28,675 bases of DNA from positions 1 through 28,675 of the IMG/VR virus record IMGVR_UViG_3300013102_000059; one strand, written 5' to 3'. The stretch is from a virus. Both the position numbers and the translations under genes were made by a program. Below are positions 19,845 through 24,185 of the stretch, in pieces. Every line of letters begins with the position of its first letter. The stretch's first letter is position 1. Below the pieces are notes generated by a model, which saw nothing but the letters and a program-made list of their open reading frames with translations, was not told where the DNA came from and searched no databases.

Positions 19845-19858
19845 ACAGCTTACGCTGT
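19845..19858 (-). terminator. small GNRA hairpin at the end of the Ro60-like gene
   Basis: ACAGC-GUAA-GCUGU followed by UUUCUUCU; the hairpin overlaps the stop codon. It may be a weak terminator. The arm repeats the ACAGC pentamer found in the Y-like RNAs, which may be chance given its length. Confidence 0.4.
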
Positions 19859-21313
19859 AACTTCTGCATATCTTTCTGAATCTACAACCTCTAACATAAA
19901 GTCATAAGGCGTTTTTCCATCGTTGTTCAATAGCTGAGTCAAGATGCTTGGCGAGAATCCGCTTACAAGTTGTACTCCTTGTGCATTTTTTGTGACTGGC
20001 GAGTTGCCATAAGCGTTTACATTCCAAAATACAATGTTAGGGAAATCGTAACCTTTTGAGTTAAATTTCTTTTCCATTTCTTTAAAGATATGTACGCTTG
20101 TACCATTGATGTTATAGCTGTCAAACTGCATATCAGAGATAATGTAGATTTTCTTAACAACTTCATCGTTTGACAAGCTGTATGCATCTGCTACATCTAA
20201 TACAGTTTGTAACGCTTTTTGAATATTAGTGCTATAACCTTTACGAGCTTGGATATTATGCACTTTATCAACAATGTTACTTCCTGTGATTTTGACCATA
20301 GATGGCTCATCTGTAAATGTCATAAAGTGATCCTTGTAGATACCTTTATTACGTTCTGCAATGTACATCGCAAGAGCGATAGATACATTCATTGGTGTAC
20401 CATTCATAGACTCACTTACGTCAGCCATTACTAATGAATCCTCAGTTTTGTCACCAATGAAGTCAGTTAGATTTTGCCATTGACCTTCAAACAGCTTAAT
20501 ATCTTGTTCAGATACTTCTCGTCTGCCACGCCCACCACTAGCACCTAAAATCTTGCCAACGATGTCGTTTGGATATAGAGTTCCTGCATTTACTTTGACT
20601 TCACCTTTTTCAAGAGAGTCTAAGAATGACTTGTAACGCACTTCATCATTGCGGAAGAATGCACCACGATATTGCATACCTGCTTTTGATGGCAACTTAG
20701 AATAATCGATATCACCGTAATTCTTCTCTGTAAGCTTAGTCTCAACTAGGTTGATTTTAGCTCTAAGACTAGATAATGCTTTTCGATATTTCTTTGGTGT
20801 AGTACCAAAAGCTTCACGTAAAATTTTTGCATACTTCTTAGTTTGTTGACTAGAAGTGTTTTCAGATGGCATCCACTTAGCAAGTAAGCTAGGATTATCA
20901 GACATCATATCTGTTGCTAGTTGACTAACAACTAATGATGCTACATCGCCTTTTAAGCTAGTATCTAATAAGACCCATAGGTCATCCCATCGACCAAACT
21001 CTGGTACTAGGTGTAGATTTTTCTTTAAAGAATCTTTATTGTGTAATGCTAGATGCTTTAAAGATAATTTGAAGAATTTTCTTTCTCCTTGACCTTGCTT
21101 GATGTCACGCAAGTAGAATAACGTCTTCATTGCTAACGTTGGGTTTTCAGCGTATGCGGTTGAGAATAATCTTACGATATCACTATCGCTACGTTGTCTC
21201 ATTGCTCCACCTTGAGAAAATAAATCTAAAACTGCTGATGTTGTTGAGTTATAAGCTTTAGCTCCATTAGCAGTTGTTGTTTCGTTAAAATGATTGTTTA
21301 AATGATTAATCAT
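19850..21313 (-). CDS. Ro60-like TROVE/DUF2828-type protein with vWA domain
   Basis: 487 residues. I choose the ATG at 21311-21313; a GTG three codons earlier sits only two bases from the AGGAG site. Residues 15-280 form a helical repeat region with TROVE/DUF2828 hallmarks: FYLRDIKQGQGER (66-78) and PEFGRWDDL (104-112). Residues 290-487 form a von Willebrand A domain with an intact metal site: DVSES (Asp298, Ser300, Ser302), Thr362 and Asp394 in SDMQFD. The closing segment PNIVFWNVNAYG...LVSGFSPSILTQLL is characteristic of DUF2828. Ro60 proteins hold Y RNAs on the outside of a helical ring and misfolded RNA ends in its hole. Three Y-like RNAs lie immediately upstream under promoter 21845-21873, and others in the tRNA array. 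Y RNA binding is inferred. Confidence 0.85.
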   Translation of the reverse strand: MINHLNNHFNETTTANGAKAYNSTTSAVLDLFSQGGAMRQRSDSDIVRLFSTAYAENPTLAMKTLFYLRDIKQGQGERKFFKLSLKHLALHNKDSLKKNLHLVPEFGRWDDLWVLLDTSLKGDVASLVVSQLATDMMSDNPSLLAKWMPSENTSSQQTKKYAKILREAFGTTPKKYRKALSSLRAKINLVETKLTEKNYGDIDYSKLPSKAGMQYRGAFFRNDEVRYKSFLDSLEKGEVKVNAGTLYPNDIVGKILGASGGRGRREVSEQDIKLFEGQWQNLTDFIGDKTEDSLVMADVSESMNGTPMNVSIALAMYIAERNKGIYKDHFMTFTDEPSMVKITGSNIVDKVHNIQARKGYSTNIQKALQTVLDVADAYSLSNDEVVKKIYIISDMQFDSYNINGTSVHIFKEMEKKFNSKGYDFPNIVFWNVNAYGNSPVTKNAQGVQLVSGFSPSILTQLLNNDGKTPYDFMLEVVDSERYAEVTA

Positions 21314-21409
21314 AATTATCACTACTCCTTTTAATTTTTTATATTTTTTATTTTTAAATACATTCTCAAATTCTATAAATAAAATACAAGAATCTATTTA
21401 AAAATTATT

Positions 21410-21475
21410 CAAGACACAAGTAAGACAAAATAATATTTCTACATTATGTATTTGTTATTAGCTGTATGTGTCTTT
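21410..21475 (-). ncRNA. Y-like RNA 1
   Basis: Minus strand: AAGACACA at the 5' side pairs perfectly with UGUGUCUU at the 3' side (21467-21474 with 21411-21418), followed by G. Inside the 5' arm, GACAC is followed by AU and then ACAGC, the family signature. The interior is about 40 bases, AU-rich, with a small UACA/UGUA hairpin. It ends about 97 bases before the Ro60-like start codon, in the 5' untranslated part of that gene's transcript. Confidence 0.7.
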
Positions 21476-21488
21476 TATAATAATTTAA

Positions 21489-21608
21489 CAAGGCTCTACT
21501 TGTCGTATTTCTATGGTTATTTCTATGGTCTTGCTAGTATGATTCTTTTCATTACTATTCTTTTATATGATTGTAGGTTTTGTTTGTAGATTGCTGTAAT
21601 GAGCCTTT
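21489..21608 (-). ncRNA. Y-like RNA 3, covaried stem
   Basis: The terminal stem is AAGGCUC/GAGCCUU (21601-21607 with 21490-21496) instead of AAGACAC/GUGUCUU: two base pairs have changed on both sides while pairing is kept. AUU and then ACAGC follow the 5' arm, and the 3' arm is followed by G. The interior holds an AGUAAUGA...UCAUACU hairpin and a tandem 12-base direct repeat (ACCATAGAAATA, about 21502-21530). It lies between Y-like RNA 1 and a structured RNA, upstream of the Ro60-like gene. Confidence 0.65.
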
Positions 21609-21753: not shown

Positions 21754-21829
21754 TTAACTAGACACACAAAATATAATTCTTCTCAAATGAAATTTTATAG
21801 GGTTTGTGATTGCTGTAGGTGTCTATTAA
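21754..21829 (-). ncRNA. Y-like RNA 2, promoter-proximal
   Basis: The terminal stem UAGACAC/GUGUCUA (21825-21819 with 21758-21764) is extended by UUAA/UUAA with one bulged G. CU and then ACAGC follow the 5' arm. The interior contains CACAAA, which can pair with UUUGUG next to the 3' arm. The -10 box of promoter 21845-21873 ends about 16 bases upstream, so this RNA should be at the very 5' end of the transcript that runs through Y-like RNAs 3 and 1 into the Ro60-like gene. Confidence 0.75.
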
Positions 21830-21844
21830 CTAACTTATATACTT

Positions 21845-21873
21845 ATTATATCATTATTTATTACATCTGTCAA
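21845..21873 (-). promoter_or_regulatory. sigma-A promoter, drives Y-like RNAs and Ro60-like gene
   Basis: TTGACA (21873-21868), spacer of 17, TATAAT (21850-21845), with an extended -10 (ATGATATAAT). The spacer half AATAATGATATAAT is shared with the other four promoters of the window. Predicted start near 21838. It lies 15 bases past the stop of the 73-residue gene. Confidence 0.88.
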
Positions 21874-22143: not shown

Positions 22144-22197
22144 CAAGACACAGTATACTATCCGATTAGTGGTTGGTGTAGTTGCTGTTTGTGTCTT
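22144..22197 (-). ncRNA. Y-like RNA 4
   Basis: Terminal stem AAGACACA/UGUGUCUU (22197-22190 with 22145-22152), G after the 3' arm, AA and then ACAGC after GACAC. The interior of about 38 bases includes ACUA that can pair with UAGU, around an ACCAACCACUAAUCGGA loop. It lies between the nuclease gene and the 73-residue gene, 34 bases before the latter's start codon. It is the shortest member. Confidence 0.7.
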
Positions 22198-22217
22198 AAG
22201 TCGTGTATGTGGCTTAT

Positions 22218-22634
22218 TTATATATTTGATAATACATTTTCAAAAAGATAATCTTCTGCCATTCTTATACCTTTTGCTTGATTATTTTTTGGTTTTTCAA
22301 TTCTTAGATTTACTGCTCTTAACGGATCGCCATCATTCTTAAGTAAGTAGCAACTGTTATTCTCTATACAATGTAAAGCGAAATAATCAACTTCATCAGA
22401 AGTATATTTGTAATCTACATCATAACGTCTACTAGTTAATCCGAAAGTCATTACTCCATCTGTAATATGTTGAATAGTTTTTATCTGTATTCTCTGCAAA
22501 CTTCCATCGAGAAATACTACTAAGTCAGATTGCTCATTGTCGCCAAAAGGTATATACACAGGTATTCCATAAGAAACAAACTCTGCTAATACTTTAGCTT
22601 CTCCAATGTTGCCAATCGATTTTGTATTTATCAT
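22218..22634 (-). CDS. PD-(D/E)XK nuclease-like protein
   Basis: 138 residues. The core nuclease pattern is visible: Glu12 in GNIGEAKVLAEFVSYGIPVYIPFG, Asp37 in QSDLVVFLDG and Gln50-Ile-Lys52 in RIQIKT. This order (GxxGE, D, QxK) is that of the small PD-(D/E)XK endonucleases associated with group I introns and of related resolvase-like enzymes. The start follows AAGGAGAATTAGTTT, 18 bases past the end of tRNA-Ile, so it is probably co-transcribed with the tRNA array. It could be a free-standing homing endonuclease targeting tRNA genes, or a nuclease acting on phage or host DNA. I found no intron around it. Confidence 0.75.
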   Translation of the reverse strand: MINTKSIGNIGEAKVLAEFVSYGIPVYIPFGDNEQSDLVVFLDGSLQRIQIKTIQHITDGVMTFGLTSRRYDVDYKYTSDEVDYFALHCIENNSCYLLKNDGDPLRAVNLRIEKPKNNQAKGIRMAEDYLFENVLSNI

Positions 22635-22652: not shown

Positions 22653-22727
22653 TGGTACTAAGGGCAGGATTTGAACCTGCGACCTACGAATTATCGGTTC
22701 GTTGCTCTACCTCTGAGCTACCCTAGT
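22653..22727 (-). tRNA. tRNA-Ile (anticodon GAU)
   Basis: Acceptor ACUAGGG/CCUUAGU, D-arm AGCUCAGAGGUAGAGC, anticodon stem ACGAA/UUCGU with loop CCGAUAA, T-arm GCAGG-UUCAAAU-CCUGC, encoded CCA. Position 33 is C rather than the usual U. It is the last tRNA of the array, 18 bases before the nuclease gene. Confidence 0.88.
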
Positions 22728-22734
22728 ATATCGG

Positions 22735-22810
22735 CACTGTAGGTTGGAATCGAACCAACGACCTTTTCCTCGGAATAAACGAATGCTCTGCCAAACTGAG
22801 CTACTACAGT
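22735..22810 (-). tRNA. tRNA with irregular anticodon arm, identity unclear
   Basis: Acceptor ACUGUAG/CUACAGU, D-arm GCUC/GAGC and T-arm GUUGG-UUCGAUU-CCAAC are sound. The stretch between the D- and T-arms is 25 bases, two or three more than normal, and no 5-bp stem with a 7-base loop fits. The best partial pairing (AUUCG/CGAGG) would display UAU (Ile, AUA). CCA is not encoded (CCG). It may be a decaying gene. Confidence 0.7.
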
Positions 22811-22814
22811 ATTA

Positions 22815-22889
22815 TGGTGGCTTCGGTTGGTAACGCTCCAACGTCTACGGATTTTCAGTCCGTCACTAATCTACCTCAGTTACGAAGCC
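22815..22889 (-). tRNA. tRNA-Phe (anticodon GAA)
   Basis: Acceptor GGCUUCG/CGAAGCC, anticodon stem ACGGA/UCCGU with loop CUGAAAA, encoded CCA. The T-loop region is GGAGCGUUACCAACC, a departure from the UUCRA consensus, so the T-arm is unusual. Adjoins the irregular tRNA downstream. Confidence 0.85.
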
Positions 22890-22895
22890 ATTTGA

Positions 22896-22964
22896 TTGCG
22901 GAGAAGGGAATCGAACCCTTTCATCGAGCTTATGAAGCTCAAGTCAAAACCGATTTGCTCCGCA
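22896..22964 (-). tRNA. tRNA-Met or Ile2 (anticodon CAU)
   Basis: Acceptor UGCGGAG/CUCCGCA, T-arm AAGGG-UUCGAUU-CCCUU, anticodon stem UGAGC/GCUCG with loop UUCAUAA. The D-arm is short and weakly paired. CCA is not encoded. CAU may be elongator Met, or Ile if modified to read AUA. There is no run of three G-C pairs in the anticodon stem, so it is not an initiator. Confidence 0.8.
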
Positions 22965-23405
22965 ATGATAATAAATTAAACCTTGTCGCTCATCCTTTTT
23001 CTACTCTTGCGACTTTGACAACGCTAATTGTCTACCATGTGATTTACAAGATTCCGCAAAGAATAGCGTACTCATAAACTCCACGCATGGATATGAAGGT
23101 TTAAAGAACTTGGTGACGACCTAGCTAGCTTAGCCTAGTATCACAAGTGTACCTATCTCACTTGTTTCTGTGTCCTTATTTCTACACTCTTTCGAGTGCT
23201 ACCACAGCGTAGCCCCTAGTCACCGTAGGAGGTAGGTAAATCAACACAGGAAGGACGGTTAATCCTTCATTTCTCTATAGCTAACGGTCAACCTTTCCGT
23301 TGTCTGTGCTGATATCTATATCGGACACATTGATGGAGTGCAACCCAATCACTTTTCTAAGCCGTTTTGGAAGACGTATGAAAAATAATAAAACAGTAGT
23401 CTTAA
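22965..23405 (-). other. 441-base gene-free stretch with many hairpins
   Basis: No credible protein or tRNA gene. On the minus strand there are several clean hairpins: CAACGG-type AACGG/CCGUU (23283-23301), AAGGA/UCCUU (23251-23267), CACUC-GAAA-GAGUG with a GNRA loop (23185-23198), CAAGUG/CACUUG (23144-23164), GACAA/UUGUC (23017-23032) and GUCGC/GCGAC (22985-23013). The density suggests a folded RNA of about 300-400 bases, transcribed with the tRNAs. I do not recognise it as RNase P RNA, tmRNA or a group I or II intron. Confidence 0.5.
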
Positions 23406-23478
23406 TCAGCATGGAGGAACTCGAATCCTCTTAACTCGCTTCACAGGCGAGTGCCTTAACCAGTTAGGCTACACACTG
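23406..23478 (-). tRNA. tRNA-His (anticodon GUG)
   Basis: Acceptor CAGUGUG/CAUGCUG, D-arm GCC/GGC, anticodon stem CUCGC/GCGAG with loop CUGUGAA, T-arm GAGGA-UUCGAGU-UCCUC. The discriminator is A and the base before position 1 is A, so the usual G-1:C73 pair of bacterial tRNA-His is absent. CCA is not encoded. Confidence 0.88.
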
Positions 23479-23482
23479 TAAG

Positions 23483-23585
23483 CTAGATTCGATGCGACAA
23501 AGTTACGCTGACCTTGTAGTTGGTTTTACGTCTATCACTTGGGATAATTCCCAGATAGACACCAACCTGCTCTTTTCGAATCTAC
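23483..23585 (-). ncRNA. divergent Y-like RNA candidate (Y10)
   Basis: A perfect 9-bp closing stem UAGAUUCGA/UCGAAUCUA (23584-23576 with 23492-23484), then G after the 3' arm as in the family. AA and then AGAGC replace the NN-ACAGC signature. Inside is a long compound hairpin: GUUGGU/ACCAAC, GUCUAUC/GAUAGAC and UGGGA/UCCCA (23519-23566). Its 3' end is 4 bases from the 5' end of tRNA-His, the same arrangement as Y-like RNAs 5, 6 and 7. Confidence 0.5.
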
Positions 23586-23817
23586 TTTACAAAGTGTAGA
23601 CAAATCTATCAATGTCTTATGGCTAAAGTGAAACTTTGTCACTGCTTTTTTGAGAGATTAGTCATTTGATAAAACTATCTTTTTATACATATAATTGCAC
23701 ACATACTCCATTCTGACATTAGTAATTTATTAGACTACCGTAGTGATGTGTTTTACAGCATTGAAATTAATTCGCAATTACATAATATAAGTGAGCAAAA
23801 CCTTTATAAATCTCACT
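23586..23817 (-). other. AT-rich spacer between two Y-like RNAs
   Basis: No gene, promoter or ACAGC signature. Small hairpins only: GUGA-CAAAGUU-UCAC (about 23627-23641) and GAUA/UAUC. Probably transcribed spacer. Confidence 0.5.
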
Positions 23818-23897
23818 CCCAACTCTACCTAGAAGATACGAGGTAGCATTCCTCAGTATAATTCCTTACACGTTGATCTTCGAGCTGTTAAGTTGGT
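23818..23897 (-). ncRNA. Y-like RNA 9, different stem sequence
   Basis: Terminal stem CCAACUU/GAGUUGG (23896-23890 with 23825-23819), followed by ACAGC after one to three unpaired bases and by G after the 3' arm. The interior is an ordered junction: GAAGAU/AUCUUC encloses GUGUAA-GGAA-UUAUAC (GNRA loop) and GAGG-AAUGCUA-CCUC, a 4-bp stem with a 7-base loop. The stem sequence shares nothing with GACAC/GUGUC, yet architecture and signature are kept. It lies 48 bases downstream of tRNA-Trp. Confidence 0.6.
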
Positions 23898-23945
23898 TTA
23901 TTAACTCCGTTTCCGTACCTATGCTAACAGGTGGAGCGGTAATAA

Positions 23946-24026
23946 CAGGGGTAGAAGGAATCGAACCTCTTGGAAATGGATTTGGAGTCCATCGGCTTAC
24001 CTCTCGCCTTTAATCCTCTTACCCCC
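23946..24026 (-). tRNA. tRNA-Trp (anticodon CCA), with extra bases before D-arm
   Basis: Acceptor GGGGGUA/UACCCCU, anticodon stem AUGGA/UCCAU with loop CUCCAAA, T-loop UUCGAUU. Eleven bases instead of two lie between the acceptor and the D-stem GGC/GCC, making the gene about nine bases too long, and the T-stem has a mismatch. CCA is not encoded. It may still fold, but its function is uncertain. Confidence 0.75.
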
Positions 24027-24035
24027 AAAATGTAG

Positions 24036-24109
24036 ATATAATAGGAGCTTAGTTGCTTGGGTTCTATCTATTACAACAGTATCTATGCTTAAACTGTAAC
24101 CTATTATAT
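24036..24109 (-). ncRNA. divergent Y-like RNA candidate (Y11)
   Basis: A 10-bp stem AUAUAAUAGG/CCUAUUAUAU (24109-24100 with 24045-24036). UU and then ACAGU follow the 5' arm, one base off the ACAGC signature. Its 3' end is 9 bases from the 5' end of tRNA-Trp. A competing hairpin, UUACAGU with ACUGU-UGUAA, would sequester the signature. The rest of the gap (24110-24185) holds hairpins CAGCCU/AGGCUG and AGUCU-GUGG-AGACU and no gene. Confidence 0.4.
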
Positions 24110-24185
24110 AATAGTCTTCGTCTTTTCTTTTCAGCCTAGAACACCAGTAAGGCTGTGTGGGTTTTGGAAGTCTCCACAGACTTTA

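Follow-up and report, generated by a model that had tools for sequence, protein, structure and literature searches.

The window, a stretch of 28,675 nucleotides of viral DNA, carries a DUF2828-type gene whose product is predicted to be a Ro60-type ring protein, and eight small Y-like RNAs with a common end structure are encoded on the same strand. With a probability of roughly three in four, the two make up a phage Ro-Y RNA particle, in which the ring protein is combined with phage-encoded Y-like RNAs and tRNA mimics serve as adaptors or decoys. The RNA class and its steady link to the DUF2828-type family are real, and the link was found both from the protein to the RNA and from the RNA to the protein. 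The contig is a virus record related to the Bacillus phages vB_BcoS-136, FADO and PJN02, and the minus strand of the window carries the main genes and all tRNA genes. The positions of the features are given in Table 1.

Table 1. Features of the window, in positions of the 28,675-nucleotide stretch; protein residues are numbered from the GTG start.
Feature	Position	Strand	Evidence or remark
Ro-like protein gene, DUF2828/DUF7788 branch, 487 aa	19850..21313	-	Frame from GTG runs to 21322
vWA domain, residues 295-470, MIDAS D301/S303/S305/T365/D397	19913..20440	-	Pfam, homolog alignment, AlphaFold2
Predicted helical HEAT-type ring part, about residues 30-290	20453..21235	-	AlphaFold2 helices, aligned to Ro60
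Y-like RNA 8, 64 nt, closest to Ro-like gene	21411..21474	-	R1 34.7 bits
Y-like RNA 7, 118 nt, closing helix AAGGCUC/GAGCCUU	21490..21607	-	Element pattern; absent from R1 list
Y-like RNA 6, 67 nt	21759..21825	-	R1 31.9 bits
Perfect TTGACA-N17-TATAAT, directly ahead of Y-like RNA 6	21845..21873	-	
Y-like RNA 5, 55 nt	22144..22198	-	R1 35.8 bits
tRNA gene cluster, Y-like RNAs 1-4 interspersed	22653..26560	-	19 by ARAGORN, two by Rfam
Y-like RNA 4, 64 nt, CUUUUAA-loop hairpin like tRNA-Lys(UUU) anticodon arm	24702..24765	-	R1 41.1 bits
Perfect TTGACA-N17-TATAAT, directly ahead of Y-like RNA 4	24780..24808	-	
Y-like RNA 3, 90 nt, closing helix encloses T-arm-like hairpin	25631..25720	-	R1 27.8 bits
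Y-like RNA 2, 125 nt, permuted tRNA-like	25854..25978	-	R1 80.3 bits; R1 training member
Perfect TTGACA-N17-TATAAT, ahead of tRNA-Leu and Y-like RNA 2	26114..26142	-	
Y-like RNA 1, 120 nt, permuted tRNA-like (T-arm, closed acceptor-like hairpin, D-arm)	26284..26403	-	R1 95.2 bits, E 3e-20; R1 training member
Perfect TTGACA-N17-TATAAT, ahead of tRNA-Cys/Glu and Y-like RNA 1	26581..26609	-	

A preliminary description of the window had placed the gene in the DUF2828-type branch on the basis of the peptides FYLRDIKQGQGER, FGRWDDL, SDMQFD, IVFWN and LVSGFSP, all of which are present in frame 19850-21322 of the minus strand. The program-made reading frame starts at GTG 21322 and the preliminary description started the gene at ATG 21313; the ATG is the likelier start because an AAAGGAG motif precedes it at a suitable distance of about 11 nt and homologs begin at the same point. 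The proposed comparison with TROVE and DUF2828 profiles confirmed the assignment, as DUF2828 (PF11443; residues 129-291, E 5e-37, 128.1 bits against a cut-off of 29) and DUF7788 (PF25043; residues 296-470, E 5e-41, 140.8 bits against a cut-off of 27.1) were both matched far over cut-off, whereas TROVE (PF05731) had no listed match at E≤1 in the Pfam search and a direct PF05731 search of the window was also empty. The PHROG_850 'RNA-binding protein' profile was matched over the full length (residues 4-486, E 6e-147). Homologs were found in at least 677 of 50,697 sequenced phage records, including phages of Listeria, Staphylococcus, E. coli, Salmonella, Campylobacter and Mycobacterium, under annotations that range over Ro-like RNA binding protein, RNA-binding protein, DUF2828, vWFA and hypothetical protein; TROVE-type Ro genes were present in 342 phage records. 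With one protein of an enterobacterial phage as the query, a search of cellular genomes returned no relatives. In the PDB, a search by sequence returned no convincing relative, and only the comparison of folds did.

Sequence alone does not join the DUF2828/DUF7788 family to the TROVE family, but the predicted structure does. An AlphaFold2 model made from 71 viral homologs (pLDDT 93.0, pTM 0.92) contains the HEAT-repeat ring that had been anticipated, together with a vWA domain, and a Foldseek search with it returned five matches below E 1e-3, every one of them Ro60, Rsr or TROVE. Structural alignment to Xenopus Ro60 (1yvr) extended over 417 residues with a Z of 20.6 at 4.0 A, followed by the Ro-RNA complex (Z 20.1), the Ro60 of Thermus phage phiLo (14.3) and D. 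radiodurans Rsr (12.4), with isolated vWA domains ranking next at a Z of about 10. The length of this alignment and the Foldseek matches therefore predict the whole Ro60 architecture, ring and vWA domain, and by predicted fold the gene product is a Ro60-type ring protein. The vWA metal site had been read as intact from DxSxS, Thr362 and Asp394, and this holds: the latter two are Thr365 and Asp397 when numbered from the GTG, and no variation occurs at D301, S303, S305, T365 or D397 among 17 phage homologs or among the 71 viral homologs.

The RNA element was defined on the minus strand, read from 26760 to 21323, as a 5' helix strand, 1-3 nt, ACAGC(A/U)A, an interior of about 30-105 nt and a complementary 3' strand. 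All eight copies in the window lie on the gene strand, each with a closing helix of 7-9 bp followed by ACAGC(A/U)A. The sequence GACACNNACAGC occurs 7 times in the window, each time on the gene strand, against 0.01 expected occurrences, and the eighth copy, Y-like RNA 7, carries a compensated helix; the same helix change recurs in loci L001, L002, L004 and L018. These are small RNAs with paired 5' and 3' ends beside a Ro gene, as is characteristic of the Y RNA class, and the label 'Y-like' is supported by the genetic linkage, the paired ends and a permuted tRNA-like module that is common to YrlA. Rfam scans of the window and 15 related loci found no family for them. Four consensus-perfect TTGACA-N17-TATAAT promoters were found on the gene strand, and two of these directly precede Y-like RNAs.

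The proposed association of the protein family with such RNAs in other genomes was found in both directions of testing. The element is also near the gene in close relatives of the window phage and adjoins DUF2828 genes in phages from nine further host genera (Listeria, Enterococcus, Staphylococcus, Mycobacterium, Aeromonas, Vibrio, Sinorhizobium, Campylobacter and enterobacteria/E. coli, the last represented by Felixounavirus). In 80 IMG/VR loci picked by protein profile, helix and core together occurred 109 times on the gene strand, in 45 loci, and 6 times on the other strand, whereas 60 permuted cores gave a mean of 4.55 occurrences (sd 2.4, max 9) in the same loci. When 107 loci were pooled, 182 unique RNAs were obtained, of which 146 lie upstream of the gene, 36 lie downstream and 105 are within 500 bp of it; the strict pattern was absent in 34 of the 107. 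In the 35 IMG/VR loci (of the 80) that lack the strict motif, CAGCAA was the top enriched 6-mer after the helix (45 against 4.6), with some clades among them showing no enrichment; other enriched 6-mers there, AGCUCA and similar, are tRNA D-arm sequence and were set aside. For the reverse direction, the whole collection was scanned with one helix version of the motif, and 84 contig stretches were found with the full motif against 2 with a permuted core and the same helix. A DUF2828-type protein is encoded in 41 of 50 virus records picked by the RNA motif alone, compared with one partial match of 15.9 bits and zero full genes in 38 records picked by a permuted core without the 3' helix, a contrast that is partly an effect of size because the control contigs are smaller on average, but that is still very large. 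The other 9 records, which may be fragments, contain neither a DUF2828-type nor a TROVE gene. At five TROVE-type phage loci, the search for the ACAGCAA element gave nothing beyond chance matches within coding sequence.

The structure of the longer RNAs was examined in an alignment of 20 RNAs of about 110-130 nt, which were selected by the outer helix alone. RNAalifold folded these into an 8 bp outer helix, a T-arm, a closed acceptor-like hairpin of 7 bp and a D-arm, i.e., the class of about 120 nt (about 20 RNAs) is a circularly permuted tRNA without an anticodon arm. Changes on both sides were seen in 20 of 23 pairs, 94.7% of the alignment cells were paired, as opposed to 67.0% after shuffling and 36-50% with slid partners, and the covariation score was 0.689 versus 0.182. 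Because only the outer helix guided selection, the three inner helices constitute independent support. A covariance model built from the 20 RNAs (R1) reached E≤0.01 at 142 sites, which are spread over 66 loci, lie without exception on the gene strand and include the 20 used for building; in 80 random viral control loci it had 0 matches. R1 also gave five matches at TROVE-type phage loci, overlapping or adjoining weak Rfam matches to YrlA. An 18.3-bit alignment pairs window positions 25876-25941, in Y-like RNA 2, with YrlA (RF02553) model positions 23-85, the permuted order being the same in both; the gathering score of 69 is reached neither there nor by the best YrlA match in the window (24.7 bits), which lies over tRNA genes, and YrlA matches that overlap genuine tRNAs were dropped. 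This alignment and its low score therefore indicate that the class of about 120 nt has its display module in common with YrlA and a different handle. The YrlA module of T-arm, closed acceptor-like hairpin and D-arm was found in the copies of about 120 nt only.

Mimicry of tRNA extends beyond the permuted class. Anticodon-type 7-nt loops occur in the interiors of 32 RNAs against 4.6 in shuffles, among which CUUUUAA (Lys) accounts for six and CUGUUAA (Asn) for five; T-loops occur in 35 RNAs (0.27 in shuffles) and D-loop-like UUGG loops in 16 (1.9 in shuffles). The shorter Y-like RNAs display single anticodon or D-like arms. In addition, tRNA models matched stretches of 117-124 nt in loci L025 (5530-5646), L008 (10621-10744) and L020 (1570-1690), where the 3' strand of the anticodon-region hairpin is followed by ACAGCAA; these are the same handle in a complementary permutation. 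Separately, L018 9943-10066, L031 924-1047 and L032 2899-3021 hold tRNA-like inserts in normal order (D, anticodon and T arms), with a Y-type closing helix in place of the acceptor stem.

Genuine tRNA genes are also concentrated in these regions, at 0.48 per kb near the Ro-like gene compared with 0.005 in random viral loci (about 90-fold), with 307 on the same strand as the gene and 4 on the opposite strand. In the window cluster, a tRNA-SeC(tca) called by ARAGORN at 25535-25623 (minus strand) is likelier to be tRNA-Leu(CAA), with the loop shifted by one base, and two tRNAs missed by ARAGORN, at 23946-24017 and 26170-26251 (minus strand), are suggested by sequence to be Trp (CCA) and Tyr (GTA). 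The cluster contains two ORF-free gaps of about 450 nt on the minus strand, 22966-23405 and 23479-23945. Skipping-rope RNA (RF02924) is matched just under threshold at 23242-23311 (minus strand), with 36.0 bits where the gathering score is 36.7, and a further conserved ncRNA is likely in the first gap because about 22980-23100 is 78.5% identical to L001 5719-5836. A PD-(D/E)XK endonuclease-like gene (PF11645, E 2e-26) is located at 22218-22634 (minus strand), between the tRNA cluster and the Ro-like gene.

We infer that the Y-like RNAs are expressed in the window phage and bound by the ring protein. In the proposed particle, the Ro60-type protein would work with co-directional Y-like RNAs produced from strong sigma-A-like promoters around its gene. 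The common handle, the 7-9 bp helix that joins the ends plus single-stranded ACAGC(A/U)A, would probably be the Ro-binding element, and the remainder of each RNA would be a variable display module, often mimicking a tRNA or one of its arms. The protein most likely would hold the RNAs on its outer surface, as Ro60 does with Y RNAs. From the tRNA mimicry, the clustering with tRNA genes and the parallel with YrlA, we hypothesize that the modules serve as adaptors to, or decoys of, tRNA-directed proteins (nucleases, enzymes of repair or modification, a host exoribonuclease), and the phage's own tRNAs and other RNAs might thereby be protected or processed in infection. A more specific and rather doubtful version is that the RNAs form a Ro-bound decoy library directed at host enzymes of tRNA cleavage or modification, making the RNP an anti-defence particle; besides permuted tRNAs, such a library would possibly hold full tRNAs in which the Ro handle stands in for the anticodon loop, D-like arms, and anticodon arms on their own (Lys UUU, Asn GUU, Ile GAU, Met CAU and others).

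A strong alternative to the adaptor or decoy role, with chances somewhat short of even, is that a 3' exoribonuclease, either host PNPase or a phage nuclease, is tethered to the Ro ring through the RNAs, so that the assembly would degrade RNA, and that the tRNA likeness is a stable docking fold instead of a decoy. The Rsr-Y RNA-PNPase mechanism of D. radiodurans is a known precedent (PMC7790460, PMC12282133), and the permuted module is common to YrlA-type RNAs. Furthermore, the next large gene downstream of the Ro-like gene in the window encodes a metallophosphoesterase/exonuclease-type protein (phrog_284), and 6 of 131 neighbour proteins match Metallophos_2. However, one nuclease partner does not obviously need single-arm RNAs with many anticodon-type loops.

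It is improbable that the RNP acts in or on the virion, with the Ro-like protein and the RNAs packaged or injected. The homolog CKA15_055 was detected in purified particles of a Listeria phage with 20 peptides and 57% coverage (PMC12282133), and in Sinorhizobium phage Phosso a TROVE-type Ro-like gene (L340, 290301-291965) lies between the tail sheath and tail tube genes; yet the former is one proteomics study in which carry-over of an abundant protein is possible, and the window gene sits with early-type promoters and tRNAs, outside any virion operon. The same authors saw this Rsr-like gene near very abundant ncRNAs and proposed that these are Y RNAs (PMC12282133). CKA15 contains three motif RNAs at 25553-25289, unannotated in the record. 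CKA15_059-061, the most abundant transcripts of that phage (L216 3889-4199, i.e., OR088597 26388-26698), form an ncRNA locus apart, which has a sigma-A-like promoter of its own and no ACAGCAA element, and their position, 0.8-1.2 kb upstream of the three, rules them out as motif RNAs.

It is quite improbable that another phage or host factor, such as an RNA-processing enzyme, recognises the helix and ACAGCAA and that the Ro-like protein is merely co-inherited. YrlA, which is the most familiar family of bacterial Y RNAs, does not show the core, and binding of the element by the protein is putative; against this stands a search for a conserved protein partner among 258 flanking proteins, in which no common family recurred. 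RtcB, NADAR and Thg1 are single-case neighbours of DUF2828-type genes, the RtcB-type RNA ligase being encoded close downstream of the gene in Listeria phage LP-039 (L022 10858-12069). Lastly, the strong tRNA clustering near the gene and the nearly complete tRNAs in some copies would fit ordinary products of tRNA clusters (pseudogenes, processing spacers or terminators) lying near the gene through common tRNA-rich early regions, but this is very unlikely, as the element flanks the gene even with few or no annotated tRNAs (L009, L021, L024), ACAGCAA and the helix are conserved with covariation in the helix, 41 of 50 records picked by the RNA alone encode the protein, and TROVE-type loci with dense tRNA clusters are without the element.

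The preferred reading, a Ro-Y RNA particle, provides candidate partner RNAs and a testable function for a protein family without a known function, and brings the number of phage records that have Ro-type proteins to roughly three times the 342 of the TROVE type. For structural studies it also offers a large set of natural small Y-like RNAs that have their handle in common, and the anticodon-type loops raise the question of whether Ro-Y RNA particles are active in tRNA-targeting conflict between phage and host. Altogether, the two-way linkage and the fold point to a widespread viral RNA-protein machine. The Ro-like role first suggested for the family is thus supported by fold and RNA linkage, but the suggestion is not in itself novel, as Ro-likeness is already present in many phage annotations and Ro-like proteins in phages have been mentioned in passing (PMC7824862, PMC7765460, PMC12282133). 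The apparent novelty lies in the RNA class and in how consistently it accompanies the DUF2828-type family; the class has no description in Rfam or in the open literature searched.

Among known systems, the phage proteins annotated as 'Ro-like RNA binding protein' are either of the same family (PHROG_850, full length, 677 records) or of the same fold (the 342 of TROVE type, including actinophage genes), but in those annotations only the protein is named, and partner RNAs are unannotated in the records inspected. The ncRNAs reported for CKA15 are likewise abundant RNAs near an Rsr-like gene that were proposed as Y RNAs, but they lie at a different position from the motif RNAs of that phage. Similar to Ro60 and Rsr (TROVE, PF05731), the window protein has a predicted HEAT ring and vWA domain over nearly its full length and its gene is linked to small RNAs with paired ends; dissimilar from these, its sequence matches DUF2828/DUF7788 and not TROVE, and ACAGCAA is another handle than that of their Y RNAs. 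YrlA differs in that its outer helix does not align with that of the window RNA and in that most Y-like copies here are short and without the full module. The window RNAs of about 120 nt nonetheless have the permuted tRNA-like module of YrlA in the same order, and the model built on this class also detects YrlA-like RNAs adjoining TROVE phage genes.
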